From the NCBI RefSeq assembly GCF_003957295.1, contig NZ_RQPJ01000003.1:503135-567134 (forward strand): a DNA stretch of 64,000 nt. The letters run 5' to 3'. This stretch comes from Arenibacter aquaticus (GTDB lineage: Bacteria; Bacteroidota; Bacteroidia; Flavobacteriales; Flavobacteriaceae). A program made the position numbers and the translations under genes. This document shows positions 9,986-30,177 of this stretch, piece after piece; position 1 is the first letter of the stretch; each line of letters starts with the position of its first letter. A model generated the notes under the pieces. It searched no databases. It was not told where the DNA came from and saw nothing but the letters and a program-made list of their open reading frames with translations.

Positions 9986-11514
9986 TCAAAGACGTTGTAC
10001 TGAATACCCCTGCACTCTATACCGCTCCAGAGTCCCTTGTAAATCTTCTATGATTCCAGGGTTTTCATTATAGAGATTATTTCGCTGTTCAGCATCCTTT
10101 TCCATGTTAAATAGCAAGCCAGGAGTTGTAAAATCTGTATACCCCTTTAGATCTTTAAAAGATTGGGGCATTTTAGAATGTTCTCCAGAGGAGGCATTAA
10201 TATAAAGCCATTTCCCTTTTCTGAGACCCCAGACATTCTTGTAGGTGTTGTGTACCGTAGCTTCCCGAAAAGGGGAGTTATATGTTCTGCCCATAAGTAT
10301 GGGTGTTAGGTCGTAGCTGTCCGGTGCTGCATTGTGGGGTACTATTATGTTGGTTATGGATGCAATTGTAGACATAATATCTACTTGGGATATAACTTCA
10401 TCGGACACCGATCCTGGAGCGATGTGGTTTGGCCATTTAATAATAAAAGGCACATGGTGACCACCTTCCCAAACATCGCGTTTTAGTCCCCTAAAATTTC
10501 CCATGCTAAAGTGGCCGTATTTTTCAGCCCGGTCAAAGGCATATCGTTCCGGACCGTTATCTGCAGTAAAAATCACAAGGGTATTCTCTTCCAACCCTTT
10601 TTCCTTAAGGGCTTTAAGTACCTGTCCTGCCACCCAATCCGTTTGATAAACAAAATCCCCATAAGGTCCTGCTGAGGATTTTCCTTTGAATTCCTCGTTC
10701 GGAATAATGGGAGCATGCGGAGAGGGTAAGGCGAAGTATAAAAAGAACGGCTTTTTACTATCCTGCTTCCCTATCCAATCTACCGTTTTTTTTGTAAGTG
10801 TAGGCAAAACTTCATAAGGGTTCCACCCTTCTACTTTGGGACCAGGTCTAAATTCCCACTCCCCCTCGTCTATATCAAAACCTATATTATGGGGATCCAT
10901 TGTAGCTGTTGGCAGTTCTACAAATCGGTCATTTTCCATCCAAGCATAGGGCGGAAAATTAATGGTTCCATCTCCAAAATAATAATCAAACCCCCTGTCC
11001 AAGGGACCTCCAGTAATAGGTTGGCTCCAATCTACATCCTCAGGGCGATAATATTGACGCATTTTTCCCCATTGCTTTACTTCACCTGAGGGATCATTTT
11101 TAAATTCCAGTTCCATCCCAAATGCCACTTCCCTATACAAGCGGTTTGATATCCATTATTCTTAAGAACTTGTGGAAGGGTAACGTCAGTCTGGTCAAAA
11201 AAAGGTCCTCCAAAAGAATCTATAATACCGTGTTGTCTACGCCAGTGATAGGTGCCGGTCAGCAGGGCGTACCTACTAGGGGAACATATTCCCGAGGAAC
11301 TATGTGCATCACTAAACCGCATTCCTTCTGCAGCCAAGCGATCCAAATTAGGGGTTAAAATTTTGGAATCTGGATTTTGGGCATTAAGATCACCATAGCC
11401 CATATCATCGGCATAAATAATAACAATATTGGGCTGTTGACCTTGAATTTTGGAAAATAATCCCAAAAATAAAATAATTACAAATACTGAAAATCTGTTC
11501 AGGTAATAAATCAT
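9986..11514 (-). pseudogene. S1-family sulfatase broken by a single-base frameshift
   Basis: Two minus-strand reading frames together encode one complete sulfatase. The 5' part (from 11514; signal [20 protein letters not shown]) holds the metal site [15 protein letters not shown], the motif CSPSR at C77 and the signature [10 protein letters not shown]. It then runs out of frame after W-N-L-K and stops at 11077. The 3' part continues the same protein in another frame with [14 protein letters not shown], then [12 protein letters not shown], and ends at 9986. The two join if the A5 run (T5 on the plus strand, 11097-11101) had six bases. A longer upstream Met at 11544 exists, but the one at 11514 starts a clean signal peptide. 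It is either a recent inactivation or a homopolymer sequencing error. It lies between SusD-1 and the CRTAC1-like gene. Confidence 0.88.
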
Positions 11515-11572
11515 TGGGTAAAGAATTAAGTAATATAAATCCATTTAAGGAAAACTACATAAGAAATTTAAT

Positions 11573-11643: not shown

Positions 11644-13182
11644 CTAATAATCCGGGTTTTGGTCCAAGGCATTGTTCTTGTCTATAGCACTTTGTGGCAA
11701 TGGCCATTTATAGTGTTTAGGTAAGAAAACCCTATTGGAAGCCACTTGTGGATCATAAAACCCGTTGAGGACTTCTTCTGCTATACCCCAGCGCTTTAAA
11801 TCAAAGTAACGTAAACCTTCAAAGCTCAATTCATATCGTCTCTCGTTGCGGACTATTTCCCTAAGTTCGTTTGCGCTGGTGGTGGTAATTTCAGGATAAT
11901 TATCGGTATCACTTACTGCCACACCATAGGCTCTTGCCCTTACTTGATTAATGGCGTCCAGCACGGAACTATCTATATCCCCATCCTCTATTTTCCCTTC
12001 GGCATACATTAACAGTACGTCCGCATAGCGAATATGAACATAATCTGTGGCTTCGGTGGAATTCTGAACCAAGGAAGCCCTTGTTTCGGGAGTGGTCCAT
12101 TTTAGGAGGCCATAACCAGAAAGGGTTTTTTGCTCTATTTCGGGGTTCCATTCCCCTTCTTGTACGATCTGCGTTAATCTAGGATCCCTATTTTCCAGAG
12201 GGTTTTCCGGATCGTATTCCGGAGATTCGTCAATAGGAAGTCCGTCAATGGCCTCAAATGAATCAACGAATTGTTCGGTTGGCTTTAAGGTTCCCCAAAA
12301 ACCAAGCATCACCTCGGTGCCCCACGGCTGAACCTCTCCAGGAGCATTGGTATAAATGGTAGAAAAGATTATCTCCGGGTTACCTGCCTGACCACTATCT
12401 ACAAACAGACTGGAATAATCATCGGCCAGTTGAAAGTTTCCTTCGTCCATTACTTCTTTCGCTGCAGCCGCTGCCTGTCCGTATTTATTTTGATACAAAT
12501 ACGTCCTTGCCAATAGGGCATTTGCGGAACCTTTTACTACACGGCCATTGGTATAGGGCGCTTCTGGCAAATTGGAAGCAGCGAAGATCAAATCGGCTTC
12601 AATTTGAGCAAAAACTTCTTCCGCTGTGCTTTTTGGTAATTCCTGATTGTCTAAAGTGGTAGACTCCAACCTTAACGGCACATCACCATAAGTAGTCGCC
12701 AGATAATAGTAAAAGAATGCTCTAATAAAAGAGGCTTCTGCCTTCCATTGATTTAACTTGGAAGTCTCTACGTTCTCCACTTGATCTATATTGGCCAAGA
12801 AAAAATTACAGGTCTGAATTCCTTTGTAACAGATACGGTATAATTGCAAAATTGCACCGTTATTACCTCCTGTAGTAGGAGAAAAAGTACCATCTATTAT
12901 TTCCCGGAAACCATAATTAAATGTTTGGTAGGCATCATCGGTCAGGGCATCCCAATTGGGTTTGATGGAAGGGGGCCAGGCTCTTTCTCCTTTAATGGCT
13001 ATTAAATTGGATTGGAGGTTACTATAAACCCCGGTTAGGGCCAATTGTGCATCTTGTTCCGTAGTCCAGAACCCCTCTGATGAGAGCTGGGAAGAAGGTT
13101 GTTTATCTAAAAAATCAGAATCACAGGAGCTGATTGCCAGCCCAAGGATCAGTAAACTAAATATTTTTATACTTTTTTTCAT
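11644..13182 (-). CDS. susD-like: SusD/RagB-family glycan-binding outer-membrane lipoprotein (pair 1)
   Basis: A 512-residue SusD homologue that caps the SusC channel at the cell surface and binds oligosaccharide. The signal ends in a lipobox (LGLAISSCDSDFLDKQPSS), and the first residues after the lipid Cys are the classic SusD start, FLDKQP. Several TPR-like helices follow (ANALLARTYLYQNKYGQAA) with a C-terminal RagB block containing RNERRYELSFEGLRYFDLKRWG. It begins 19 bp after the SusC stop and is followed by a strong terminator. The ligand cannot be read from sequence; context points to carrageenan-type oligosaccharides. Confidence 0.95.
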   Translation of the reverse strand: MKKSIKIFSLLILGLAISSCDSDFLDKQPSSQLSSEGFWTTEQDAQLALTGVYSNLQSNLIAIKGERAWPPSIKPNWDALTDDAYQTFNYGFREIIDGTFSPTTGGNNGAILQLYRICYKGIQTCNFFLANIDQVENVETSKLNQWKAEASFIRAFFYYYLATTYGDVPLRLESTTLDNQELPKSTAEEVFAQIEADLIFAASNLPEAPYTNGRVVKGSANALLARTYLYQNKYGQAAAAAKEVMDEGNFQLADDYSSLFVDSGQAGNPEIIFSTIYTNAPGEVQPWGTEVMLGFWGTLKPTEQFVDSFEAIDGLPIDESPEYDPENPLENRDPRLTQIVQEGEWNPEIEQKTLSGYGLLKWTTPETRASLVQNSTEATDYVHIRYADVLLMYAEGKIEDGDIDSSVLDAINQVRARAYGVAVSDTDNYPEITTTSANELREIVRNERRYELSFEGLRYFDLKRWGIAEEVLNGFYDPQVASNRVFLPKHYKWPLPQSAIDKNNALDQNPDY

Positions 13183-13201
13183 CTTGCTATTTTTAAACTA
13201 T

Positions 13202-16200
13202 TTAGAAGGACATGTTTATACCTAAGGTTAGGGTTTTTCTAAATGGATATGCATCCACCCCATTAGCTTCAGGATCTACTTTGATTGGATAATCTTTCTG
13301 AAAAGTTAGATAGTTCTCGGCAGCGACATAGAATCGTAACTTATTAAATGGGGTCTTATCTATGAGTTCACTAGGGAATGTATATCCCAAGGTTACGTTT
13401 CTAAGTCGTAGGTAAGAGGTGTCCCATAACCAAAAAGAGTTTGTATAAGCAATGGACCTGCGTTCTTCAGCTGTCTCGTAATAAACAGCTGGCAACCTGG
13501 AATTTGTATTCTCTGGGGTCCAGGCTTCGGTTAACCAAGCAACATCGGCTCCACCGTCTTGTCTAAAGGGATCTCTTGCGATGTAATTTTTGGTACCTTC
13601 AACACCTTCCCAGAACATTCTAAAATCAAAATTCTTATAGTTGGCTGAAAGATTTAGCCCATACACAAAAGCTGGGTAACGACCATCAATATGAATACGA
13701 TCTTCTCCGTTGACCGTGCCATCTCCATTTTGGTCTTTTAATTTAATAAAGCCAACCTTTCCGGGTTGTGGCTGTGAGGGTGAGTTGTCTATTTCTTCCT
13801 GACTCTGGAAGTACCCATCTGCTTCCCACATATACCAATCCTGGAAAGCGTAGCCTTCCTCATTTATATTTCGATTTTGTATCTCGGGCTCGCCAAAAGT
13901 TTTAAGCCTATTTTTAAACCAGGATACATTTCCATTGATACTATATCTAAAATCATCTCCCACCATATTGTCATGTCCAAGTACTATATCCCAACCTTTA
14001 TTGGTCATGGCCCCCTGGTTCACTACTGGAGGGTTAAGTCCACTACTCTCATCTACTTGTAATTGACGTAGAATATCTACAGTTTCCTTTACATAATAGT
14101 CAATGGATCCGTGTATTTTTCTGTTGAGTAAGTTAAAATCGACCCCAAAATCGGTTACGGTAGTGGTCTCCCATGTGATATCAGGGTCCACCAAACTAGC
14201 CAGGCCAACCCCGGATAGGACACTGCTACCGAATGGATATCCAAAATTGGTAAAGGATAATGTAGATTGATAAGGGTATATTCCAGAATTCAATTCATCA
14301 TCACTTAAGTTGATCCCGATATTCTGGTTGCCCAATTGTCCCCATGAACCTCTAAGTTTTAACTCGTTGATGGCATCTACTTCTTCTACGAAGCTTTCCT
14401 TATCCAATCTCCATCCTGCGGATACCGAAGGAAAAATCCCCAGCCTATTACCTTTGGCAAACCGAGAACTGATGTCTCCCCTTAGGTTTGCTTCCAATAA
14501 ATATTTTTCTTTATAGTTGTAATTGGCCCTACCGAAAAAACTTTGGATCGCCCAACTTTCCGAAAAACCTGTTGTAAATTGATTTTCCGAATTGGCTCCC
14601 TCCAAGTCGGTTATCTTTCTACTGGGAAGACCAGTTCGTTGAGATCTGGTAAAATTGCGATCAAAACTCTCCTGGCTATAACCTCCAAGAATTTTAAAAT
14701 CGTGATCCCCGATGAGTTTTGAGTAAGTAAGGGTAGAGAACAAGGTAATTTGTTTGCTCCATACATTATCCACTGTTAATTGAGAAGGGTCTCTAGTACT
14801 TCTTAGGTATTCTCCAGTTCTATAATTATACTCATCGTATTGGATGCGTTGGTTCTTATAAAAATCGTAATCAAATTTATAAGCACCTTTTGTACTCCAA
14901 ACGAGATCATCGGTAAATTTTACGTCAAAATAGGCATTGCCATTAAAGTTATATTCATTTAGCACTTCTCCGTCTTGAACTTCCAATTCGGCAATAGGGT
15001 TATTTCTGGTGAAACCCTCATCGAAACCAGGAAATTGTGGGTCGTTACCAGAAAAGGCCTTTCCTGAATAATGACCTGTACCATCAAGGGTATACACACC
15101 CCAGGTAGGTCTAACCCTAAAAAGGTTAAATAATATGGAGCCATCTCCTCTTGCCCCAGTGGTCTTTGAGGTTACCCCAGAGGCAGTACCTCCAATAGTT
15201 AATTTTTCACCTATATCCGACTTCACGCTTAAAAAGAAATTGTTCTTTTCAAACCCAGTAGACCTAATTATACCTGGCTGATCCCAATTGCCCAATGAAA
15301 GGTTATAACTGGTTCCATCAATAGCACCGCTTGCCGTAACAACATGGCGTTGAACAATGGGATTTCTGGAAGCCTCATTGAACCAATTGGTATTTGGAAA
15401 AGCAGGATCCCCATTGGCATTCCTGTAAGCGTCTATGACTTCCTGAGGATATGGATTGGCTGATGCGCCAGGAGTATTTATTACCGCTTGGTTCAAAAGG
15501 GTCATAAAATCGGCAGAATTGGAAATCATTTCAGGTACCCTGGTAAAGGTTTCTGTAGTGACACTGCCGTTGTAATCTATTTTAAAGTTGTTACTGCCAC
15601 CAGTTTTAGTGGTCACCAAAATAACACCGTTGGCTGCCCTTGATCCGTAGATTGCAGCTGAAGAAGCATCCTTAAGTACAGAAATGGAGCTGATCACGGT
15701 TGGGTCCAAGTCCTGTAGGTTTCCCTCTACCCCATCAATAAGGACCAAAGGGCTGTTGTTACTACCAAATGAGTTGAGACCCCTTATCTTAATATTAAGC
15801 CCTTCATTACCAGGAGCACCACTGTTCTGTGAAATTTGAAGTCCTGCGGCCTGTCCCTGAAGCGCTTGGAATGCATTTTGCACATTTCTATCCTCCAAAG
15901 CCTCACTATCCACAGCAGTTACGGAACCAGTTAGGTTGACCCTCTTTTGTTGACCGTAACCCACAACTACCACTTCATCCAATTGACTGGCATCTTCGGC
16001 TAGGGTAACATTGATAGTTTCTTTTCCTTCAACTGGAACCTCCTGGGCAATAAAACCGATATAGCTAAATACCAATGTGGCACTACCTTCGGCGCTTATG
16101 GAATAATTTCCGTCAAAATCGGTTTGTGTTCCAGTAGTAGTACCCTTTACCAAAACATTGGCTCCAGGCAATGGCATTCCACTTTCATCTACTACAGTTC

Positions 16201-16315
16201 CACTGATGTTTTGATTCTGGCCATAGGTCTGTAATGTTGCAAAAAACAACACCAAGATCCATACGCTTTTGCGAAACAGAATCGGTTTGTTGGTTACTAG
16301 TTTTTTTTGTTTCAT
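13202..16315 (-). CDS. susC-like: SusC/RagA-family TonB-dependent outer-membrane transporter (pair 1)
   Basis: A 1037-residue TonB-dependent receptor. In order it has a signal peptide (ends ATLQTYGQ), a carboxypeptidase-regulatory-like domain (ISGTVVDESGMPLPGANV), a TonB-box region (LDEVVVVGYGQQKR), a plug with the SusC signature LKDASSAAIYGSRAANGVI, and a large beta-barrel that ends in Phe (LGINMSF). It imports oligosaccharides with the downstream SusD, using proton-motive energy through TonB. No FecR/sigma interaction domain is present, so control is probably by a regulator acting on the promoter. A possible promoter box lies about 200 bp upstream. Confidence 0.96.
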   Translation of the reverse strand: MKQKKLVTNKPILFRKSVWILVLFFATLQTYGQNQNISGTVVDESGMPLPGANVLVKGTTTGTQTDFDGNYSISAEGSATLVFSYIGFIAQEVPVEGKETINVTLAEDASQLDEVVVVGYGQQKRVNLTGSVTAVDSEALEDRNVQNAFQALQGQAAGLQISQNSGAPGNEGLNIKIRGLNSFGSNNSPLVLIDGVEGNLQDLDPTVISSISVLKDASSAAIYGSRAANGVILVTTKTGGSNNFKIDYNGSVTTETFTRVPEMISNSADFMTLLNQAVINTPGASANPYPQEVIDAYRNANGDPAFPNTNWFNEASRNPIVQRHVVTASGAIDGTSYNLSLGNWDQPGIIRSTGFEKNNFFLSVKSDIGEKLTIGGTASGVTSKTTGARGDGSILFNLFRVRPTWGVYTLDGTGHYSGKAFSGNDPQFPGFDEGFTRNNPIAELEVQDGEVLNEYNFNGNAYFDVKFTDDLVWSTKGAYKFDYDFYKNQRIQYDEYNYRTGEYLRSTRDPSQLTVDNVWSKQITLFSTLTYSKLIGDHDFKILGGYSQESFDRNFTRSQRTGLPSRKITDLEGANSENQFTTGFSESWAIQSFFGRANYNYKEKYLLEANLRGDISSRFAKGNRLGIFPSVSAGWRLDKESFVEEVDAINELKLRGSWGQLGNQNIGINLSDDELNSGIYPYQSTLSFTNFGYPFGSSVLSGVGLASLVDPDITWETTTVTDFGVDFNLLNRKIHGSIDYYVKETVDILRQLQVDESSGLNPPVVNQGAMTNKGWDIVLGHDNMVGDDFRYSINGNVSWFKNRLKTFGEPEIQNRNINEEGYAFQDWYMWEADGYFQSQEEIDNSPSQPQPGKVGFIKLKDQNGDGTVNGEDRIHIDGRYPAFVYGLNLSANYKNFDFRMFWEGVEGTKNYIARDPFRQDGGADVAWLTEAWTPENTNSRLPAVYYETAEERRSIAYTNSFWLWDTSYLRLRNVTLGYTFPSELIDKTPFNKLRFYVAAENYLTFQKDYPIKVDPEANGVDAYPFRKTLTLGINMSF

Positions 16316-19959: not shown

Positions 19960-21462
19960 TTATCTGTTCGTAAATGCTATTCTAAAAGAGTAGGCAGCCT
20001 CACAGGGTTTATCCCCTTCGATCTTGAGACGAAGCCCCTTTTCGGTTTGTTTCCAATCAATAGTATTATCCCCACTGATCATTTCAACCATCTTTATCTT
20101 GCGAGCTTCCAACGCGTTGTTCTTGGCCAAGGATTTAATCAAAATAACTCCATTGTCTGGCCATGCCAAGGCAGTTGCGTATAGCTTTCCATCTCTGGTG
20201 GTAAAACGAATATCCTCGGCCCCCGATTGCTTGTTATTCTTTTCTGAATGATGGCCCGTACTCACTTGGGTAGGCCCCTCTCCAAATATTTTCCATGGTC
20301 TGGTGTCATAGATGGCCTCTCCGTTCAATTGTAGCCAATTGCCCATTTCGACCAATATTTTCTTGGCCTCATCTGGAATAGTACCATCCGCTTTAGGACC
20401 TACATTCAATAACAGACATCCATTTTTACTTACAATATCAATTAATTCGTCCAAAAGATAGTCGGAGGATTTATATTCCTCATTTTCCACATAACCCCAA
20501 GAAACTTTACCTATTGATGTATCGGTTTGCCATGGATATTTGTAAATACCATCCATTCTGCCGCGTTCTATATCCAGTACAATAAGATCCTCTGGAAAGG
20601 ATTTGTTACGCATATTCTTATCTTGGAACACCACGCCTTTATCCCATTCCAAGCCTTTATTATAGTAATAAGAGAGTATTTTTTTATGCATCGGTTCAAA
20701 ACCAGGTTTGTCCAGCCCAAAGTCAAACCAAAGCAGATCGGGTTGGTATTGGTCTATTATATCGGTAGTCCGATTCCACCATAGATTGAGGAATTTTTGG
20801 GTCGGTAGTTCGTTTCCATCCACAGGTTCGCCATATAAGTCATAGAATTCTGGGTCATTGGTATCCCAAGAAGGGTCGTCCTTTCTATAGTATATGCGGT
20901 GTAGGGCGAAGTGAGAGGATACTCCAAATTTCATACCTTGTGCATAACATGCCTCTTGGAGCATGCGCATCACATCTTTTTTGGGGCCTGTATCCAGCAC
21001 ATTCCATCGGGTATAATTGGATGCATACATGGCGTAACCATCATGGTGTTCAGCAACGGGGACCACATATCGTGCCCCAGCTTTTTTAAAAAGTGTGGCC
21101 CATTCTTGGGCATCAAAATTTTCAGCTTTGAATTGTGGAATAAAATCCTTATAACCAAATTTTGAAGGTTCCCCATATTTTTCCCTGTGATAGGTATATG
21201 GCTTTAATCCTCCTTTCTGCCATTTTGGGTCATAGATCCCTTTCGGATACTTTTCACTGCTGTAGGCAGGAACAGCGTAGGGTCCCCAATGTAGAAAAAT
21301 TCCGAACTTGGCATCATGGAACCAATCTGGAATTTCATATCCATTCCTGATAGATTCCCAGTCCGCTTTGTACTTTTTGGCTACCTTGACTTGGGCAAAT
21401 GCCAATAGCGAAAAGAATAAAAGAGCAGTACTAAGGATAATTTTTAATTTCTTTAAATTCAT
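19960..21462 (-). CDS. GH29-like alpha-L-fucosidase family protein
   Basis: A 500-residue secreted GH29 homologue with a Sec signal peptide (ending LLAFAQ). Family blocks are AKFGIFLHWGPYAVPAY, AEHHDGYAMY, and LLWFDFGLD with the likely catalytic nucleophile D247. These are followed by the conserved NGCLLLNVGPKADGTIPDEA and a C-terminal beta-sandwich. GH29 enzymes are retaining alpha-L-fucosidases, and some act on alpha-L-galactose-type residues, which differ only by a 6-hydroxyl. In a red-algal locus the true target may not be fucose. It overlaps the upstream sulfatase by four bases (ATGA), so the two are translationally coupled, suggesting that the sulfatase unmasks its substrate. Confidence 0.9.
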   Translation of the reverse strand: MNLKKLKIILSTALLFFSLLAFAQVKVAKKYKADWESIRNGYEIPDWFHDAKFGIFLHWGPYAVPAYSSEKYPKGIYDPKWQKGGLKPYTYHREKYGEPSKFGYKDFIPQFKAENFDAQEWATLFKKAGARYVVPVAEHHDGYAMYASNYTRWNVLDTGPKKDVMRMLQEACYAQGMKFGVSSHFALHRIYYRKDDPSWDTNDPEFYDLYGEPVDGNELPTQKFLNLWWNRTTDIIDQYQPDLLWFDFGLDKPGFEPMHKKILSYYYNKGLEWDKGVVFQDKNMRNKSFPEDLIVLDIERGRMDGIYKYPWQTDTSIGKVSWGYVENEEYKSSDYLLDELIDIVSKNGCLLLNVGPKADGTIPDEAKKILVEMGNWLQLNGEAIYDTRPWKIFGEGPTQVSTGHHSEKNNKQSGAEDIRFTTRDGKLYATALAWPDNGVILIKSLAKNNALEARKIKMVEMISGDNTIDWKQTEKGLRLKIEGDKPCEAAYSFRIAFTNR

Positions 21463-23063
21463 AATTTTTTAGCCAACTTGTTTTTTTTGTTCTTTTTCTT
21501 TCTTGCCATAAGGCCAATTGTAGGTCTCGGAATTTTATCAGTGGGGCCACGCATTACATAAGGTTCCCATTGCTCCCTTACCTTTTCCCATTCATCTAGA
21601 CTACGGGTAGGATACCAAGCAGGCCATCCAACGGTATTAAAATCATAATTCTTATGATTTTTTGTTATCCATTCATCTACTGTAGAAAACGGATTCTGGT
21701 CGGGAAAAACACCGGTAGCCCTAAACTTTTCTGAAACACCTTGATCATTTATGACATATTTTCGCCAGTATTCCAGTTGGTTTATCAATTCCTTTTTTAC
21801 TACTGCATATTCGGGATTTTCAGCTATGTTATGTACCTCAAATGGGTCATTTTGTATATCAAATAGTTCTATTTGGGGTTTGGTTTCGGCAAAAAACAAT
21901 GACTGTTCTGGAGTAAGTAATCCCTTCATATACAGTATGTTCATCTCTGCTAAAACAGGGTATGCCCCTTCTTTATATTCGTTATACTGACAATAGGGCC
22001 GTTCTGGCATTAGGTTTAGGATTAGTTTAAATTCCTTGGTTCTAATAGCACGCATGGCATCATGCGTTTCATCCATTTTGTCACGGGCAGAAAATATGTA
22101 TTTTCTATTCTTGATTTCATCCCCTAAAAGGTTTTTTCCATGCAAGGGAACTGGAGGGGCAATACCTGCGGCTTCAAGAATAGTTGCGCCAATATCAATA
22201 GACATGACAAGGTCATCACTTACCTGCTTGGGTTCAACTTTGCCAGGCCATCGCATGATCATAGGTATTCGCGTTCCACCATCGTACAAAAATTGTTTGC
22301 CACGTATGTGGCAACGACCGTGATCTGCTATAAAAAACACAATGGTATTATCGGCCAGGCCTTCGTCATCCAGCCGTTTTAACAAACTACCTACTTCTCT
22401 GTCTACCAATTGCATTTGTTCCAATCCATTGGCCCAATCACGACGAATAAAAGGGGTGTCCGCATAATAAGGGGGAAGCTCAATGTCCCCAATGTCAATG
22501 GGCCTTTCATGGTCCCGTTTCCAAGAACGGTGGGTACCTGCAAAGGTAATTCTGGCAAAGAAGGGTTGATCTGGCTCACGTTCCGTCCAATCATTCGTAT
22601 TCATAAAGAGCTCCTCCTTAGTGTCCGGAAGAAAATTCATATCTGTTTTCCAGCTCATCAGGGTGGTGAAATATCCTGCTTCCTCAAATAATTTTGGAAT
22701 AGGTTTTACGCCATGTGGCAAAGGCTTCTTATGATGCTCTCGGTGTTGGTGGGCACCAATGTAGTTTTGATGGAAACCGGTCATCATTGCAGAGCGCGAG
22801 GTGGAACAAACGGGAGAGGTAGTAAATGCAAGATTATATCGAATGCCTTCTTCGGCCAATTTATCCACGTTAGGGGTATAGATTCCTTTTGTTCCATAGC
22901 ATGAAAGGTCTGGACTCCAATCTTCAATAGTGATCCATAAAATATTGGGGCGATTATCCGTCATTTCTTTTTTCGTCTTTTTGGATTCATCGGCACAGGA
23001 GGCTAGCAATAATAAGTTCAAGAACATAAAAACACCCACAAGCGGTTTAACGGAAGAAAACAT
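21459..23063 (-). CDS. S1-family sulfatase, lipoprotein, unusual CSTSR motif
   Basis: A 534-residue sulfatase of the heparan-N-sulfatase-like branch. The leader ends LLLLASCADESKK (lipobox LASC). The metal site is ILWITIEDWSPDLSCYG, a form with Glu-Asp in place of the usual Asp-Asp. The formylglycine motif reads CSTSR (C86), with Thr where the FGE consensus has Pro or Ala. Other conserved parts are FFIADHGRCHIRGKQ and FDIQNDPFEVHNIA. It ends with a lysine-rich tail (ARKKKNKKNKLAKKL), which is odd for a secreted enzyme. Its stop overlaps the GH29 start by four bases. Confidence 0.9.
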   Translation of the reverse strand: MFSSVKPLVGVFMFLNLLLLASCADESKKTKKEMTDNRPNILWITIEDWSPDLSCYGTKGIYTPNVDKLAEEGIRYNLAFTTSPVCSTSRSAMMTGFHQNYIGAHQHREHHKKPLPHGVKPIPKLFEEAGYFTTLMSWKTDMNFLPDTKEELFMNTNDWTEREPDQPFFARITFAGTHRSWKRDHERPIDIGDIELPPYYADTPFIRRDWANGLEQMQLVDREVGSLLKRLDDEGLADNTIVFFIADHGRCHIRGKQFLYDGGTRIPMIMRWPGKVEPKQVSDDLVMSIDIGATILEAAGIAPPVPLHGKNLLGDEIKNRKYIFSARDKMDETHDAMRAIRTKEFKLILNLMPERPYCQYNEYKEGAYPVLAEMNILYMKGLLTPEQSLFFAETKPQIELFDIQNDPFEVHNIAENPEYAVVKKELINQLEYWRKYVINDQGVSEKFRATGVFPDQNPFSTVDEWITKNHKNYDFNTVGWPAWYPTRSLDEWEKVREQWEPYVMRGPTDKIPRPTIGLMARKKKNKKNKLAKKL

Positions 23064-23167: not shown

Positions 23168-24610
23168 TTATAAATAAAAGTCAGAAATGATATTGCGAGG
23201 TCCTTTTTCATAATCCCATAGGTAGTCTCCGGTGGCTTCGACACATTTTTGACTGATATGCTGAGGTAGTACGGAAACCAAAGGATAGCCTGTTTTGGAT
23301 TTGAACATTGCCAAGTGTTGTAAGTATTTTTCTTCCGTGATATCCTTTTCGGCATTTCCACCAATATGGTCAAGGTTGATACCACGTCCGGGAGAGGATT
23401 TGCAGGAAATTTCATAATGTGTTTTTACACGGGCGGGCCAATCGTATTTATCGTTCAGCCACACATCATTGGTACGGGTTACATCGGTAAACTTGGTAAA
23501 GAAAATATCGGGAACGTGAAATTCCATTTCAATAGTTTCGTCTATACCTTTTGCTGCTTTATAAAGTTCTTTGTGTATGTGCAGCATGTCCGATTTTGTA
23601 TTGTAAGACATATCGATCTTAAACTTGCGTACCCCCATTTTATGAAAGCGGTGAATGGTCTCCGTAGCGTACTCAAAAATATCCGCTTTCGGGTTTAGCC
23701 ATCGTACCCCCTTGTCGTATTCCGTTTTGCCTTGTACCCTATAGGCACCCAAAAGATTCGGATTGTTCTGGGCCGCTATACTGGAGCCGTGAATTTTTGG
23801 AAATGCTATCCATAGGCCGGGAGTGAATCCTTTTTCATTAATGAGGTCCATGGTTTTTCTAAAATCGGGAAATTTTTTAGGGTCCGGATGCCATGAGCCG
23901 TAACCAGAATTTAGGCTACCGTCCGGAAATTGGCCCCAGCCATGGTCCAAAGTCATTTTTCCCTTAGGATATCCGAATTCGATAATTTTATCCAAATACT
24001 TTGCTACAAAGTCGTGATTCAATAAATCAAAGTGCCCTTTAGGAACATTGGATTGTATTTTCTGCTCTACCCAAGTGCAATACTCCACATCGGCCCAGAA
24101 ATGCGGATATAGCTTGTAGGGTTGAATGTTCAACCGTTGCATCATTTGAGTATTGTATGCCTTCCATGCTTGGTCGCCATCTCCGTTTTCATCAATAAAA
24201 AGCTCCTGTCCTTCGGGAACGTTTATGGTCAATGTTTCTTTTCCATCAAAACTGAAAGTTGAATTTTCAAAACCGAAAGTAGTCATAAAGCCAACGAATT
24301 TACCGGCGGTGTCACGGATAATAGGCGAACCGCTCATGCCACTGGCAGGAGTGGTAAATGGGTTATGGGTAAAGGCATCACTTAGAAAATAATAGGCATC
24401 ACCACCTTTTTGAGCAGGGGTGCCATTACTATTGTACGGGCAGAATAAGGGTTTTGTAACTTTTATTTTTATTTGCTCACTTTTATTTATGCCTTTTAGG
24501 TCAAAAACCTCAAAATGAGAGCTAGCGACCTTTGCTGCCAAGGGAGCAGAAACACCTGCTAAAGCAGCACCCATACCAGCCTTTTTTATAAAGTTTCTTC
24601 TGTTGTTCAT
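23168..24610 (-). CDS. Tat-exported TIM-barrel glycoside hydrolase, clan GH-D/GH31-like
   Basis: A 480-residue putative glycosidase. The leader NNRRNFIKKAGMGAALAG has twin arginines and suggests Tat export of a folded protein. An N-terminal beta-domain (about residues 40-160) precedes a TIM barrel with blocks seen in alpha-galactosidase-type families: EYCTWVEQK, GKMTLDHGWGQFPDG, GFTPGLWIAFPKI and KFKIDMSYN. In the last of these, D333 sits where GH31 and GH36 have the nucleophile. It has none of the long C-terminal domains of GH36 or GH31 and may be an undescribed subfamily. It lies 7 bp after the beta-propeller gene stop, implying a joint role. Exact family assignment is uncertain. Confidence 0.6.
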   Translation of the reverse strand: MNNRRNFIKKAGMGAALAGVSAPLAAKVASSHFEVFDLKGINKSEQIKIKVTKPLFCPYNSNGTPAQKGGDAYYFLSDAFTHNPFTTPASGMSGSPIIRDTAGKFVGFMTTFGFENSTFSFDGKETLTINVPEGQELFIDENGDGDQAWKAYNTQMMQRLNIQPYKLYPHFWADVEYCTWVEQKIQSNVPKGHFDLLNHDFVAKYLDKIIEFGYPKGKMTLDHGWGQFPDGSLNSGYGSWHPDPKKFPDFRKTMDLINEKGFTPGLWIAFPKIHGSSIAAQNNPNLLGAYRVQGKTEYDKGVRWLNPKADIFEYATETIHRFHKMGVRKFKIDMSYNTKSDMLHIHKELYKAAKGIDETIEMEFHVPDIFFTKFTDVTRTNDVWLNDKYDWPARVKTHYEISCKSSPGRGINLDHIGGNAEKDITEEKYLQHLAMFKSKTGYPLVSVLPQHISQKCVEATGDYLWDYEKGPRNIISDFYL

Positions 24611-24617
24611 ATTGATG

Positions 24618-26330
24618 TTATTCTTTTAAGGTTATGGTTTTGGTGAAGTTTACGGTATGGCTCCCATCTAGAATAATGGTACTTTTTATGCTATAGCTTG
24701 TCCCTTTTTTCAATTTAGCTTTACTACTAAGGGAAACTGTAGACTCCTCAAACGGTTGAATTGGTTCCAACTTTCCGGCAGCTATTTCTATTTCCTTTCC
24801 ATCTATTGGAAGTGTGAGTCTAATTTCTGCATCAGAGGAAGCTACTTGTCCAAAATTCTCTACTATCACTTCTATATCATATCCTTTAACAGTCTTTTTA
24901 AAAACTGGTGACCTAGCAGATAGAATGGGTTCTATATATTTCACCTCTGGTAATCGGGTGTATCCAAAAAGCAATTTTCCATTTTTTTCTTTGCCCAACA
25001 ATTTCCCTGCAAAGTTGTCGTTGGTAAGGCCGTTACCTTTGCCATCAAAAATTAGAATAAGGTCATCACCTGATTTTTCTGTCCGCTTTATTTTACTTCC
25101 CTGTCCGTAGTTTACTTGTTCCGAAGCACCAAAGCGTAGGGAGTTTAAGTCAATATCCGCTTGCGGATTAAAATCCCTCTCTGCCTCTATTTTAACCCGA
25201 ATCTCTTTTGTCTTTGATGTGATTTTCTTCTTGTTTAATACAGAGAGTAATTTGTCTTTTACCAGAGGAACAACAATTAGTTTGGAACTGTGGTTATCAT
25301 TGGGCAAATCTTCATATTTTAAAGTATCTATAACGGCAAAATTTGCAGCAATGGCCCGTCCTTTATCATCTTGCAGCATGCGAATACGTTCGTATTTATG
25401 CCAGTCTTCCTTTAACCCGTTTTCATGAACCGATATTCCCGGCATATAAGCTTCACCTGGTTCTACTTTCCAATTCACGCCATTTTTAGAGCGCAGGTAC
25501 CAGGCGATCCTGCCGAGCCAGTCGTTCACAATGAGATGGTATTGTACGCTGTCTTTCCAGATTACTGGGTCTTCATATTTTCCTTCTACCGGCGGATATA
25601 CCGATTTCTCGCCAACCATATTCCAAGTGGACAAACCATCTTTGCTGAACCATGTGTAGCCATGGCGGTTTACCATTAAGAATGAGCCGTCTTCACGTTG
25701 CGCAAAGGTGCAGTTGTGCATAAAATTGGAGGCATTTGAGGTTTTACGGTCACGTTTGTCGAATTCAAATTGACCTTCTTGCCAGGGGCCATTAATATGC
25801 CGGGCCACATAATATTTATCTATGACGTAGAGTACATATCTTCCTTCTTTTGTCCTGTACCATGTGGGGTTGTGTCCATGCCCCACTTCCGATTGTATTT
25901 TGAAAGGCCCAAAAGGGGATTCGCTCACCCCATGAACTACGCGGCTATTATGATATGCCATGTGACCCTTTTCGGCAGTTTCTGGCCATCGACAAACAAA
26001 GAGATGATATTTACCATCTTCCTTTTCCTGCAAGGTATTGCCTCCCCAATACGACCACCGCGGACTTTCCACGCCATTGTTGCTGTCTCTGGGGATCACA
26101 TTGGGTGCTCCCCAAGTATTTGAAGTAATTCCCCCGAGATCGGGCATGGGCAGAAATCGATCCATAAAACGGCCGCCTAGAACAAGTTTGCTCCACTCAA
26201 CTGGACGCTCTCTCTCTACGACCATTTCATGGGCTTCTTTTTTTTGTTTCTTCGGTATCACCTTTTGTTGAGCATGCGAAATTGTAAAGGTCATTAAGAG
26301 AAAAAGAATGGTAATATATTGTTTTGACAT
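24618..26330 (-). CDS. Secreted five-bladed beta-propeller hydrolase-like protein (GH43/GH117-like fold)
   Basis: A 570-residue secreted protein (signal MSKQYITILFLLMTFTISHAQ). Residues about 40-360 look like a five-bladed beta-propeller with blade motifs such as SPRWSYWGGN, YHLFVCRWPE, GHGHNPTWY and KYEDPVIWKDSVQYHLIVND. These resemble the acidic-residue blades of GH43/GH117-type enzymes. After a linker, residues about 370-570 form beta-sandwich domains, the last like a CARDB/APHP module (EVIVENFGQVASSDAEIRL). GH117 enzymes release anhydro-galactose from agar oligosaccharides, so an exo role on galactan ends is attractive, but the family was not confirmed. It precedes the Tat-exported hydrolase by 7 bp. 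Confidence 0.6.
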   Translation of the reverse strand: MSKQYITILFLLMTFTISHAQQKVIPKKQKKEAHEMVVERERPVEWSKLVLGGRFMDRFLPMPDLGGITSNTWGAPNVIPRDSNNGVESPRWSYWGGNTLQEKEDGKYHLFVCRWPETAEKGHMAYHNSRVVHGVSESPFGPFKIQSEVGHGHNPTWYRTKEGRYVLYVIDKYYVARHINGPWQEGQFEFDKRDRKTSNASNFMHNCTFAQREDGSFLMVNRHGYTWFSKDGLSTWNMVGEKSVYPPVEGKYEDPVIWKDSVQYHLIVNDWLGRIAWYLRSKNGVNWKVEPGEAYMPGISVHENGLKEDWHKYERIRMLQDDKGRAIAANFAVIDTLKYEDLPNDNHSSKLIVVPLVKDKLLSVLNKKKITSKTKEIRVKIEAERDFNPQADIDLNSLRFGASEQVNYGQGSKIKRTEKSGDDLILIFDGKGNGLTNDNFAGKLLGKEKNGKLLFGYTRLPEVKYIEPILSARSPVFKKTVKGYDIEVIVENFGQVASSDAEIRLTLPIDGKEIEIAAGKLEPIQPFEESTVSLSSKAKLKKGTSYSIKSTIILDGSHTVNFTKTITLKE

Positions 26331-26409: not shown

Positions 26410-27978
26410 TCAAACTCTTTTTTGAATAGGCCCTATGCCATTTCTCCAGTTTTGATTACATTCTCTATAAAGAATAGCCTTTAATTTTTCTGTTTTTTGC
26501 GGATGGTCTTTGGCTAAATCTTTCACTTCTTCATAATCATCTGGTAGGTAATACAGTTGAAAAACATCTTCTTTAAGATAATACCGGAGTTTCCAGCCAT
26601 CTTGGGTGACCAAAGCGGGGCCCATTTTTGAAGAGTAAACGGTGTAATCCCGTAATTTGGGTTTCCCTCCAAAAAGAGCTTTTGCATAAGAAACTCCATC
26701 TTTTTCTCTTCTTTGCGGGGTACCTACAATTTCGGCAAGTGTATTCAGAAAGTCATAATTGCTCACCATTTGATCAGAAACGCCGCCGGCTTCAATTTTA
26801 CCTTTCCAATACCAAAACAAGGGAACTCTTACGCCACCTTCCCAATTGTCACGCTTTTTTCCGGACATACCATCATTACCGTCAAAAATATCTCCAGCAA
26901 CCAGACTGTTAAAGCGCGTAATAATATTATCAAATTCTTCCCCTTTTACATTTACGTTGTTTTTTGAGGTACGTCCTTCTTCGGGATAATAGATTTCATG
27001 ACCGTTGTCCGATGTAAAGACGATAATAGTATTGTCTATAATTTTCATTTCTTCCAGTTTGGAATAAATTCGGCCCACATCGTCATCCAGCATTTTAACC
27101 ATAGAAGCATACTCTTTTTCCCATTGGGTCAAGCTGGGGTTGTTTACCAATTCCGGATGCACCTGGGGAACCATAGTAGGCCCGTGGGGCAATTGTGTGG
27201 GGAAGTATAAAAAGAAGGGCTTGTTCGTTTTTTTTGGATGATTGTCATCCATAAAGTCCAGCATTTTTTCCATGATAATATGCTCGGAATAGACCGCTTT
27301 CCCTTCCATATTCCAGCGGTCCTTAAAATTTGTGGGAGAGTCATATTCAGTGGTTTTGGCACAATCTATATGTGTATTTCCAGGGATGTCTATTTTTTTA
27401 CCATTCTCAAAAAGAAAGGAAGGGTAAAACCCGTGGCATCGCACATGGTCATAATATCCAAAGTGATAATCCCAACCATGGCGTTCCAAACGTTCTGGAG
27501 TGGTAGCGAAACCCCATTCCAATTTCCCGAACTGCCCCGTGGTATAACCTGCTTTCTGGGCAATTTCGCCCAAGAAAACTTCGTCTTTTTCTGCTGGAAG
27601 TGCTACTTGATGGATTTTAGTCTTTATGTCGTCTAGGGTCAAACTCTTATCCAGTTCCTTATAAATACCTGCTTTCACAATGGTCATGGCATCACCTCCA
27701 TGACAGTCGTGCATTCCGGTCAGTAGACTGGCCCTTGCAGGGGCACAGTATATGGCGCCATAGGCTCTTTCAAATTGCATACCTTCTAAAGCCAGTTTGT
27801 CAATATTGGGCGTAGTCAGCATCTTTTGTCCGTAAGTACCCACCATACCACGGCCAAGGTCATCGGCATAAATAAGTACTATGTTGGGTTTTTGAACTTC
27901 TTTTTTTTGGGTCCAACATGAGGAAACAGTAAAAAGAATTAAAAAAATATGAATTGAAAACTTCTTGGTAAGGTTCAT
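26410..27978 (-). CDS. S1-family sulfatase, CAPAR motif
   Basis: A 522-residue secreted sulfatase (signal MNLTKKFSIHIFLILFTVSSCW). The metal site is NIVLIYADDLGRGMVG. The formylglycine motif is CAPAR (C78): the Pro and Arg are kept but Ser is replaced by Ala. Downstream blocks are TTGQFGKLEWG in place of the more usual GKWHLG, FTSDNGHEIY with the Asp-Asn pair, and WEGGVRVPLFWYW. The Trp-Glu variation in the second signature marks a distinct subfamily. It is 19 bp downstream of the Cys-less sulfatase homologue and likely shares its transcript. Confidence 0.9.
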   Translation of the reverse strand: MNLTKKFSIHIFLILFTVSSCWTQKKEVQKPNIVLIYADDLGRGMVGTYGQKMLTTPNIDKLALEGMQFERAYGAIYCAPARASLLTGMHDCHGGDAMTIVKAGIYKELDKSLTLDDIKTKIHQVALPAEKDEVFLGEIAQKAGYTTGQFGKLEWGFATTPERLERHGWDYHFGYYDHVRCHGFYPSFLFENGKKIDIPGNTHIDCAKTTEYDSPTNFKDRWNMEGKAVYSEHIIMEKMLDFMDDNHPKKTNKPFFLYFPTQLPHGPTMVPQVHPELVNNPSLTQWEKEYASMVKMLDDDVGRIYSKLEEMKIIDNTIIVFTSDNGHEIYYPEEGRTSKNNVNVKGEEFDNIITRFNSLVAGDIFDGNDGMSGKKRDNWEGGVRVPLFWYWKGKIEAGGVSDQMVSNYDFLNTLAEIVGTPQRREKDGVSYAKALFGGKPKLRDYTVYSSKMGPALVTQDGWKLRYYLKEDVFQLYYLPDDYEEVKDLAKDHPQKTEKLKAILYRECNQNWRNGIGPIQKRV

Positions 27979-27997: not shown

Positions 27998-29518
27998 TTA
28001 TTTGGAGAGAATGGAATTTGGAGATAGTGGCACTTTGTTTGAAGCTCGCCATGCAACCAGCTCATCCAGTAATTTTTGTGTTGTTTTGGCGTGGTCCTGG
28101 GCCAAGTTCTTGGTTTCTTTGGGGTCTGTCTTTAGATTATAAAGTTCTAGTTTTCCATCTTTCAAGAATTGGATCAGTTTGTAATCTCCTTTTCGGATTA
28201 CGAAACACGTGCCATGTTTGTACTGGCTAGCCAAGTGCCAGAACAAGGGGCGTTGCTTAAAATTACGATTGTCCTTTTTAAATAGGGTGGAAAGGGATTT
28301 TCCATCTAATTGTCCTTTGTGGGCTACATGGGCCACATCCATTAGGGTGGGGAAATAATCTATTACTGCAATAGGAATTTCAGTTCTTCGGGCTCTTACC
28401 TTGCCGGGCCAGTGAATTAACGCAGGTACTTTTATTCCGCCTTCATAAATTTCACCTTTGGCTCCTCTCAACTTTAGATTCTCTGAGGCTATGGGGTGGT
28501 AGCCGTTATCTGAGGTAATAATTAAAACAGTATTCTCTTCTAGCTTATTTTTTTTGAGGTACGCCATGATTCTACCAATGTTCTCATCCATAGATTCTAC
28601 CATGGTGGCGTAACTGGCCATCCGTTCTTTATTTTTCCCTATTCCTTGCCCTGTTATGGGGTCCCCTGGTTTGTTCATGTATTTATTAAAAAGTACGTCA
28701 TTTCTATTCTTTATTGGACGATGAACCGCATAGAAATGGAGGTTGACCAAAAACGGAGTGTTTTTATTATTGTCCATAAATTCAATAGCGTCGTCAGCTA
28801 ATCTATCCGTAAGCCATTCATCATTGGGTTTTGGAGCTATGAACGGATTGCTGAACGGAGCGCGATACCCTCCTCGTTCACTTTTGTAGCCTCCTTTTTC
28901 TAAGGCAGGATCACCTCTAAAGGTGCCACCAACATTTTTAATAAAGCCCCTGCCTTCTGGATAAAATTGTTTTACAGCTTGGGTCTTATGGTTTTCTACC
29001 CAAGTGAAATCCCCCGCTTGGGGTTGGTCCAGTCGTTGCTGTATAGGCCAGTTCATTGCCAATTCTTTTTCGGGATAGGGCCCCACAATGTGCCATTTAC
29101 CCAAATGAATGGACTTATATCCCGCTTCAGCAAGGGGTTCGGCGTAAATGGGGTGTTCCTTTTCAACCGTCCATCTAGAAAATATATTCTCTTGAGCATC
29201 TCCTTTCTCTAATACGGGAACCGTGTAAACTCCAGTCCGGAAGGATTGTTTCCCGGTGAAAAGTGCGGACCTGGAAGGCGAAAAAGTAGGATACATATAG
29301 GCATTGTCAAATACCAAGCTTTCTTTGGCCAAAGCATCCAAGGCAGGGGTCTCAAAATAGGTTGATCCATTAAAGCCAACATCGGCATAACCCAGGTCGT
29401 CAACAAGTACAAAAATGATATTGGGTTGCTTTTCTTGGGCCCTGTTGACCCCAAAAGACATTAGGAATATCAGAAAAAAATAATACGAACCCTTTTTTAA
29501 ATACGTAGTGTCAAACAT
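27998..29518 (-). CDS. Sulfatase homologue lacking the formylglycine cysteine (FSPSR)
   Basis: A 506-residue S1-fold protein with a signal peptide (FFLIFLMSFGVNRAQ). The general sulfatase frame is intact: metal strand NIIFVLVDDLGYADVGFNG, second signature SIHLGKWHIVGPYP, Asp-Asn block IITSDNGYHPI and a normal C-terminus (ELYNLKTDPKETKNLA). However, the maturation motif reads TFSPSR, with Phe at residue 79 (codon TTT, 29282-29284) exactly where Cys or Ser is needed to make formylglycine. It therefore should not act as a classical sulfatase. It could be a binding pseudoenzyme, a recently dead gene, or an enzyme with other chemistry. The reading frame is otherwise undamaged. The stop of a decayed gene touches its start codon (TAAATG). 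Confidence 0.88.
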   Translation of the reverse strand: MFDTTYLKKGSYYFFLIFLMSFGVNRAQEKQPNIIFVLVDDLGYADVGFNGSTYFETPALDALAKESLVFDNAYMYPTFSPSRSALFTGKQSFRTGVYTVPVLEKGDAQENIFSRWTVEKEHPIYAEPLAEAGYKSIHLGKWHIVGPYPEKELAMNWPIQQRLDQPQAGDFTWVENHKTQAVKQFYPEGRGFIKNVGGTFRGDPALEKGGYKSERGGYRAPFSNPFIAPKPNDEWLTDRLADDAIEFMDNNKNTPFLVNLHFYAVHRPIKNRNDVLFNKYMNKPGDPITGQGIGKNKERMASYATMVESMDENIGRIMAYLKKNKLEENTVLIITSDNGYHPIASENLKLRGAKGEIYEGGIKVPALIHWPGKVRARRTEIPIAVIDYFPTLMDVAHVAHKGQLDGKSLSTLFKKDNRNFKQRPLFWHLASQYKHGTCFVIRKGDYKLIQFLKDGKLELYNLKTDPKETKNLAQDHAKTTQKLLDELVAWRASNKVPLSPNSILSK

Positions 29519-29641
29519 TTATTCAATTTTTTTAGTGTACTTGAGAGGAGGTAATCGTTTTCCCGTTTTATAGTCCAATCGCTTGCCGTAATAGATATAA
29601 TTATCAAATATATCTCCCTTACCCTGTGTCCTGGGATCACC
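29519..29641 (-). pseudogene. Remnant: C-terminal tail of a lost gene, sulfatase-like
   Basis: About 40 in-frame codons ending in TAA directly before the next ATG. They read like the end of a real protein (GDPRTQGKGDIFDNYIYYG, then KTGKRLPPLKY). The DPR...GKGDIFD pattern resembles the C-terminus of heparan-N-sulfatase-like S1 proteins. There is no start codon, and the frame is closed by a stop at 29642, where it meets the SusC remnant. It looks like the last piece of a gene deleted on its 5' side. Confidence 0.5.
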
Positions 29642-29912
29642 CTAGATTATACCCCCTATACAAGGCATCGATATTCTGGTTAACGGCCCGCCAAACACCA
29701 TACATGCCAGCAAAGGGCTCTTCATAATTTTCGATGCTGGAATTGAGGTTTATACCAACTTCCAAACCAATTTTATCGAATTTCGTAGAAACATTGCTTC
29801 GTACGTTAAAACGCTCGTAGTTTACAACGTCTTTTTTTTAGATACTGCCTTCATCTACATAACCCAGCGATACAAAATAGTTGGTTTTTTCACTGCCCCC
29901 GCCAAAAGCATT
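29637..29912 (-). pseudogene. Remnant of a SusC TonB-dependent transporter
   Basis: About 90 codons of SusC barrel sequence in one frame: GGGSEKTNYFVSLGYVDEGSI, then an in-frame stop (TAA at 29838-29840), then KKDVVNYERFNVRSNVSTKF and GLEVGINLNSSIENYEEP. This is the stretch just after the plug in SusC proteins. The piece ends in TGA at 29637, overlapping the tail of another lost gene. It lies just downstream of the hybrid regulator on the same strand. From here to 30177 (about 265 bases) nothing else recognisable is seen. Confidence 0.75.
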
Positions 29913-30177
29913 TCAGTTCATTTTTTTAAGGATTATGTTGAGTTGATTAATACATTATTTCTGCCAAACAGTAAAGTGTTCAGCTTCTTGATTCTTTGTT
30001 GCTTCAAAGGTATTTTTTACAAATTAAGAGATGTATTTGCAAGTAAATTTTATGTATTTACCAATCAATACGCGAAAGTAGATAGGGAGAAAAAAGGCAA
30101 TGGAGAATTAAACAAAAGCGACTTATTAGACTTTACCGATCGCTAGATTTTATTAGGAAAAGGATGTGTTTTATACT

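Follow-up and report, generated by a model that had tools for sequence, protein, structure and literature searches.

In a window of 64,000 nucleotides from Arenibacter aquaticus, which is the whole stretch of DNA that was analysed, a sulfatase gene was found that has a phenylalanine codon in place of the codon for the catalytic cysteine. Very probably, this sulfatase was inactivated recently, and the gene is at an early stage of decay within a polysaccharide locus that is eroding. The genome has about a hundred matches to sulfatases (105 to Pfam family PF00884), of which this gene would be a single one caught early in its loss. When sulfatases are counted in polysaccharide loci, the catalytic codon should be checked as well.

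The gene is a single uninterrupted open reading frame on the minus strand (27998-29518), has neither a stop nor a frameshift, encodes 506 aa and contains YMYPTFSPSRSALFTGKQS. The protein matched PF00884 (Sulfatase) over residues 32-397 with 165 bits (cut-off 25), and a match to SGSH_C was also found (74 bits). The frame is not a chance ORF. In type I sulfatases a Cys (or Ser) is converted to formylglycine, which is needed for catalysis. At the position of the Cys/Ser of the [CS]xPxR motif the protein has Phe79, encoded by TTT (29284-29282 on the minus strand), in the sequence TFSPSR, which begins at residue 78. The first position of the motif thus lacks the Cys or Ser that an active type I enzyme (SulfAtlas class S1) would have, while the Arg of the motif (R83) and the PF00884 match are those of S1 proteins. 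Nine active-site residues were checked (D40, D41, R83, K141, H143, H266, D337, N338 and K354). All of them are intact and invariant in 36/36 homologues, including R83, and thus the Ca ligands Asp-Asp (D40, D41) and Asp-Asn (D337, N338) as well as the active-site Lys and His were kept. An earlier note, made from the sequence alone, had described an intact frame with Asp-Asp, Asp-Asn and GKWH signatures and a Phe as residue 79, and the ORF and the codon read-out bore out both statements. The features of the window are compiled in Table 1.

Table 1. Features of the sulfatase gene and its surroundings in the window
Feature	Position	Strand	Evidence
S1 (formylglycine-type) sulfatase homologue, catalytic Cys replaced by Phe79	27998..29518	-	ORF, Pfam, alignment
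Codon TTT (Phe79); TGT or TGC in 36/36 distinct homologues	29282..29284	-	sequence and alignment
Remnant of the upstream sulfatase, its final 125 bp (in Z. russellii 518 aa, 158 bits to PF00884)	29519..29643	-	matches G149:C21:505460-505584
Remnant of SusC-type TonB-dependent receptor, corresponding to about residues 325-408 of the 1031-aa Z. russellii protein	29642..29890	-	stop in frame
Block like the region just upstream of Z. uliginosa SusC (80%), with TACCTTTG at 30012	30004..30073	-	sequence comparison
Hybrid two-component regulator (Reg_prop, HisKA, HATPase_c, Response_reg, HTH_18), open frame of 1373 aa	30178..34299	-	Pfam
Adjoining downstream sulfatase; Z. uliginosa has an orthologue, Z. 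russellii has no match here	26410..27978	-	Pfam and comparison
Sulfatase in two frames (11077-11544 for the N-part and 9986-11140 for the C-part)	9986..11544	-	comparison
Second SusD (11644-13182) and SusC-type receptor (13202-16315), both open frames	11644..16315	-	Pfam

The catalytic column was compared among orthologues and near paralogues from genomes of the same genus and the same family, from samples of the phylum and from GTDB contigs. The alignment had 37 distinct full-length rows including the focal protein. Cys, encoded by TGT or TGC, was present in all 36 distinct homologues, and Phe was present in 1 of the 37 rows, i.e., in the focal protein alone. This count left out the focal gene itself (L031), L032 (same place as L046), the identical copies L048, L051, L121 and L122, and in addition L044 (31% identical), L050 (broken) and L052 (matches residues 29-77 only); L044 and L050 both carry Cys. 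The nearest homologue, that of Zobellia russellii (L045), is 91% identical and has TGT at the catalytic codon, from which TTT differs by one base. Among the homologues examined this change was private to the A. aquaticus genome. Across all 37 rows 122 columns were invariant, and two otherwise invariant columns were altered in the focal protein alone, namely C79F and P499S near the C-terminus. The earlier note had set Cys in all relatives as the outcome that supports recent inactivation. This outcome was found, and it speaks against a conserved pseudoenzyme, in which the inactivating residue would be conserved among relatives.

The host genome was analyzed in the same way, and 107 distinct sulfatase-like ORF pieces were aligned. 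Cys was found in 98 of them, which may count a few truncated second copies from overlapping fetched stretches, and Phe in one, the focal gene. Thr was present in one distant member that reads PGTNQS, and seven pieces, which are fragments and distant members, had no aligned residue. One Cys-bearing paralogue elsewhere in the genome (G000:C4:673219-674649) is 57-58% identical to the focal protein.

The region directly upstream of the gene carries a deletion scar. Z. russellii and Z. uliginosa share the gene order regulator, SusC, SusD, sulfatase and orthologue of the focal gene. For Z. russellii, Plug, SusD, PF00884 and a small DUF5018-related gene that sits between SusD and the sulfatase were confirmed with Pfam; Z. 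uliginosa has a 170-codon open stretch in the gap that matches the place of this gene. In the window a 249-bp SusC piece comes after the regulator; at 29642/29643 it abuts the final 125 bp of the sulfatase, and the ATG of the focal gene follows. Relative to Z. russellii, about 5.7 kb are missing at the joint (499771-505459), and about 1 kb more is missing between the regulator and the SusC piece. The comparison with Zobellia revealed that the SusC/SusD pair and the adjoining upstream sulfatase are absent beside the focal gene, and scraps only are present.

The nucleotide identity of the SusC remnant is 75.5% to Z. russellii and 72.7% to Z. uliginosa. A Pfam search with the 64-aa piece after the stop retrieved no family, and the C-part of the Z. 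russellii SusC likewise retrieved none; the remnant is named SusC because it matches the Z. russellii SusC, which has Plug and CarbopepD_reg_2 in its N-part. Across the joint the identity changes from 75% to 87%, and, therefore, the joint may also mark the border of a recombined segment. Further upstream, the block at 30004-30073 contains TACCTTTG, which we take to be a Bacteroidota promoter element. The block is possibly a surviving promoter, from which the focal gene may still be transcribed.

A second lesion was found in the same cluster: a frameshift splits the sulfatase at 9986-11544 into two parts, and its counterparts are single ORFs of 508 aa in Z. russellii and 504 aa in Z. uliginosa. 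The split gene retains the catalytic CSPSR. The second SusC/SusD pair and the regulator are open, and, therefore, the locus is not dead. The orthologue in Pricia antarctica (L050, 6874-8059) is independently broken, as about 100 codons (about residues 202-302) are lost, and in this species the regulator lies about 85 bases from the upstream sulfatase, and SusC/SusD are absent from the interval. Two further sulfatase fragments of the host genome, G000:C9:17072-17467 (L053) and G000:C9:30620-30949 (L054), each have an in-frame TAG, and thus the decay of sulfatases may not be confined to the focal cluster. No Pfam match was obtained for two proteins of the cluster. The first (480 aa, 23168-24610) is conserved in the window and two species of Zobellia with a dN/dS of 0.03-0.05. 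The second (570 aa, 24618-26330) has a counterpart of equal length in Z. uliginosa, and Z. russellii has no match at the corresponding place.

A sequencing or assembly error, with TGT as the true codon, is an unlikely explanation. TTT is one base from TGT and is seen in one genome only, and the frameshift at 9986-11544 could be an error as well. However, a chance hit on the single most critical codon would be improbable beforehand, and the missing 5.7 kb next to the gene could hardly stem from a miscalled base.

The focal cluster (1094-34299) contains two GLAA-B genes, which are presumably GH110-like, a fucosidase and several sulfatases, and therefore its original substrate was likely a sulfated red-algal galactan. 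The adjacent region at 35256-55414 encodes a GH127 protein, a KDPG-type aldolase, a 2-keto-3-deoxy-galactonokinase, an aldehyde dehydrogenase and an enzyme of the mandelate-racemase type. It also encodes a 695-aa protein that matches DUF5696 and that reached GH129 only below the cut-off of this family (23.1 versus 25.6 bits). This content resembles that given for the carrageenan locus of Z. galactanivorans in the accessible text of PMC5698469.

The phylogenetic tree placed the focal gene within a Zobellia clade of nine rows (support 100/100) as the sister of Z. russellii (100/99). The other genes of this clade, from Z. russellii KMM 3677 and seven further ones, are 80-91% identical to it. Within the genus Zobellia the gene was present in 8 of 9 genomes with 81-90% identity; these genomes were assigned to Zobellia because the coordinates in G018 and G1144 coincide with those in Z. 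uliginosa (L046) and Z. russellii (L045), respectively. In the host genus 7 of 18 genomes had a match at E <= 1e-120, six of them only via a 56-59% identical paralogue, which together with the host's own second copy forms a separate clade in the tree. Thus, the focal gene itself is present in only 1 of the 18 genomes, and, together with its nesting in the Zobellia clade, this indicates that it was probably gained horizontally. The dS between the focal gene and that of Z. russellii was 0.60. For 12 other cluster genes compared with Z. russellii, dS was saturated in ten, 4.17 for 21459-23063 and 1.06 for 23168-24610, and dS of the sulfatase at 26410-27978 to Z. uliginosa was 1.10. The regulator was found in 2 of the 18 genus genomes at E <= 1e-200, and the other copy is 56% identical. 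These values would fit a horizontal gain of the locus with a more recent gain or replacement of the focal segment.

Selection on the focal branch was analyzed with three outgroup choices. The counts of nonsynonymous and synonymous substitutions are partial, as many differences could not be polarised. With one outgroup they were 18:46 on the focal branch versus 30:55 on the Z. russellii branch (p 0.38; 42 differences unpolarised), with four Zobellia outgroup rows 17:21 versus 24:26 (p 0.83; 101 unpolarised), and with all seven other Zobellia rows 14:9 versus 7:11 (p 0.21; 145 unpolarised). The pairwise dN/dS was 0.082 between the focal gene and Z. russellii versus 0.058 and 0.062 for the other two pairs. 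None of the three comparisons differed significantly, and the loss may be too recent to have raised the nonsynonymous rate. The 14:9 versus 7:11 counts and the value of 0.082 lean weakly to relaxation, or they are noise. The end branches of the tree were alike (0.058 and 0.064). A simple Poisson model (one-outgroup counts, background omega of 0.03-0.1) rejected at 5% any neutral phase that exceeds about 8-15% of the branch. For most of the branch the gene thus evolved under purifying selection, and, therefore, the loss of the Cys looks young. Alternatively, the protein is still constrained. The substitution data fit both alternatives, and a young loss is favoured because the change is private and the scar adjoins the gene.

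The recent inactivation might have proceeded as follows. A working type I sulfatase would have arrived from a Zobellia-like donor as part of a locus for a sulfated seaweed galactan, as suggested by the tree, the gene distribution and the neighbours. The SusC/SusD import pair and the neighbouring upstream sulfatase are missing, as the comparison revealed, with scraps joined at 29642/29643, and would have been lost during the transfer or later. A single G-to-T exchange from TGT to TTT, a direction to which the relatives point, would have eliminated the Cys, the residue to be oxidised by a formylglycine-generating enzyme. An S1 protein without formylglycine may still fold and bind Ca and sulfate and should not hydrolyse sulfate esters. 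Either the deletion or the loss of the Cys may have come first. As the import partner is gone and the genome contains the 57-58% identical Cys-bearing paralogue, the loss was perhaps tolerated, and the gene would now either be in the first stage of decay or represent an allele that has just been inactivated. It has what is typical for a decaying gene, i.e., a loss that is private to one lineage and neighbours that have decayed or were lost. Against decay, the frame is fully open without any stop or frameshift, the low nonsynonymous rate is equally expected of a constrained pseudoenzyme, and the second SusC/SusD pair and the regulator are still open frames.

The earlier note had offered three alternatives, a pseudoenzyme kept for binding or regulation, an enzyme with other chemistry, and a very recent loss one base away from TGT. 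The third one was supported by Cys in all 36 homologues, TGT in the sister, the scar directly upstream and the frameshifted sulfatase in the cluster. For the first two no positive support was obtained: Phe is common to none of the relatives examined, and the sole other private change of an invariant column is P499S.

It is quite improbable that the protein has been retained as a pseudoenzyme that binds a sulfated glycan, or holds a substrate or partners, without hydrolysis. The open frame, the intact metal and substrate residues, the lack of a significant excess of amino-acid changes on the branch and the possible promoter upstream would be compatible with this. However, the Phe is confined to one row of 37, for which reason a conserved pseudoenzyme was rejected as the leading reading. 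Furthermore, the gene adjoins the scar at which the SusC/SusD pair and the neighbouring sulfatase were removed, a second gene of the cluster is broken, and the observed constraint can all predate the loss of the Cys. The more specific version, in which a surface or periplasmic binder of sulfated galactan feeds the remaining SusC/SusD pair and is driven by the surviving regulator and promoter, is very improbable. If it were true, the protein would be a sulfatase pseudoenzyme worth study; nothing that was found argues for a binder.

Thr and Ser serve as nucleophiles in other members of the alkaline phosphatase superfamily, and an enzyme with other chemistry, e.g., with Thr78 or Ser80 as nucleophile or precursor, has next to no probability here, as no [CS]xPxR motif is left at the site, and both residues were rejected as alternative precursors since neither is new or specific to the focal protein (Ser80 is common to the Cys-bearing homologues aligned, Thr78 to most). 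A profile search of the host genome with TIGR03942, which we take to represent the anaerobic-type maturases whose members can act on Ser, gave no match at E <= 0.001, and a Ser-type maturation was rejected. PF03781 (FGE family) had eight matches in six genes, with two pairs in one frame each, and this is weak evidence because the family also covers non-FGE proteins.

The closest known counterparts of the recently inactivated sulfatase are the genes of Z. russellii KMM 3677 and the seven others of the Zobellia clade. They are the same gene, and theirs have the Cys (TGT or TGC). In the two gene orders that were compared, Z. russellii and Z. uliginosa share the regulator and several downstream genes with the window; beside their orthologues SusC, SusD and the upstream sulfatase are present, whereas the window has scraps. 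A literature search found no paper on sulfatase pseudoenzymes, on sulfatase pseudogenes in PULs or on mutated catalytic Cys in Bacteroidetes, and no claim is made that such reports are absent from print.

The best sequence match in the PDB was 9fo1 (245 bits), taken to be AMOR_S1_16A, which the available parts of PMC11760155 describe as a kappa-carrageenan sulfatase of SulfAtlas subfamily S1_16. Judged from the same parts, the fold family, the Ca ligands and the active-site Lys and His are the same, but AMOR_S1_16A has Cys58 where the focal protein has Phe79. Its Trp79 is called conserved in S1_16 there (PMC11760155). In the pairwise alignment the Trp of 9fo1 (LTDWIPG) is aligned to a Thr of the focal protein (VY.TVPV), and an S1_16 assignment based on the best PDB match was thus rejected.

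In the SulfAtlas paper, as far as its accessible text goes, Cys and Ser account for 78.9% and 21.1% of 4058 aligned sulfatases (PMC5066984); every member of that set has Cys or Ser, and thus the frequency of other residues is not shown by it. The same text mentions some PF00884 proteins that have Thr with TxNxE, and no mention of Phe in place of Cys was found in it. Like the focal gene, predicted S1 sulfatases were judged there to be possibly inactive due to a lost catalytic residue (Barbeyron et al. 2016; PMC5066984, accessible text). Nine of those sequences had lost the Arg of CxPxR, whereas the A. aquaticus protein has kept the Arg and lost the Cys instead.
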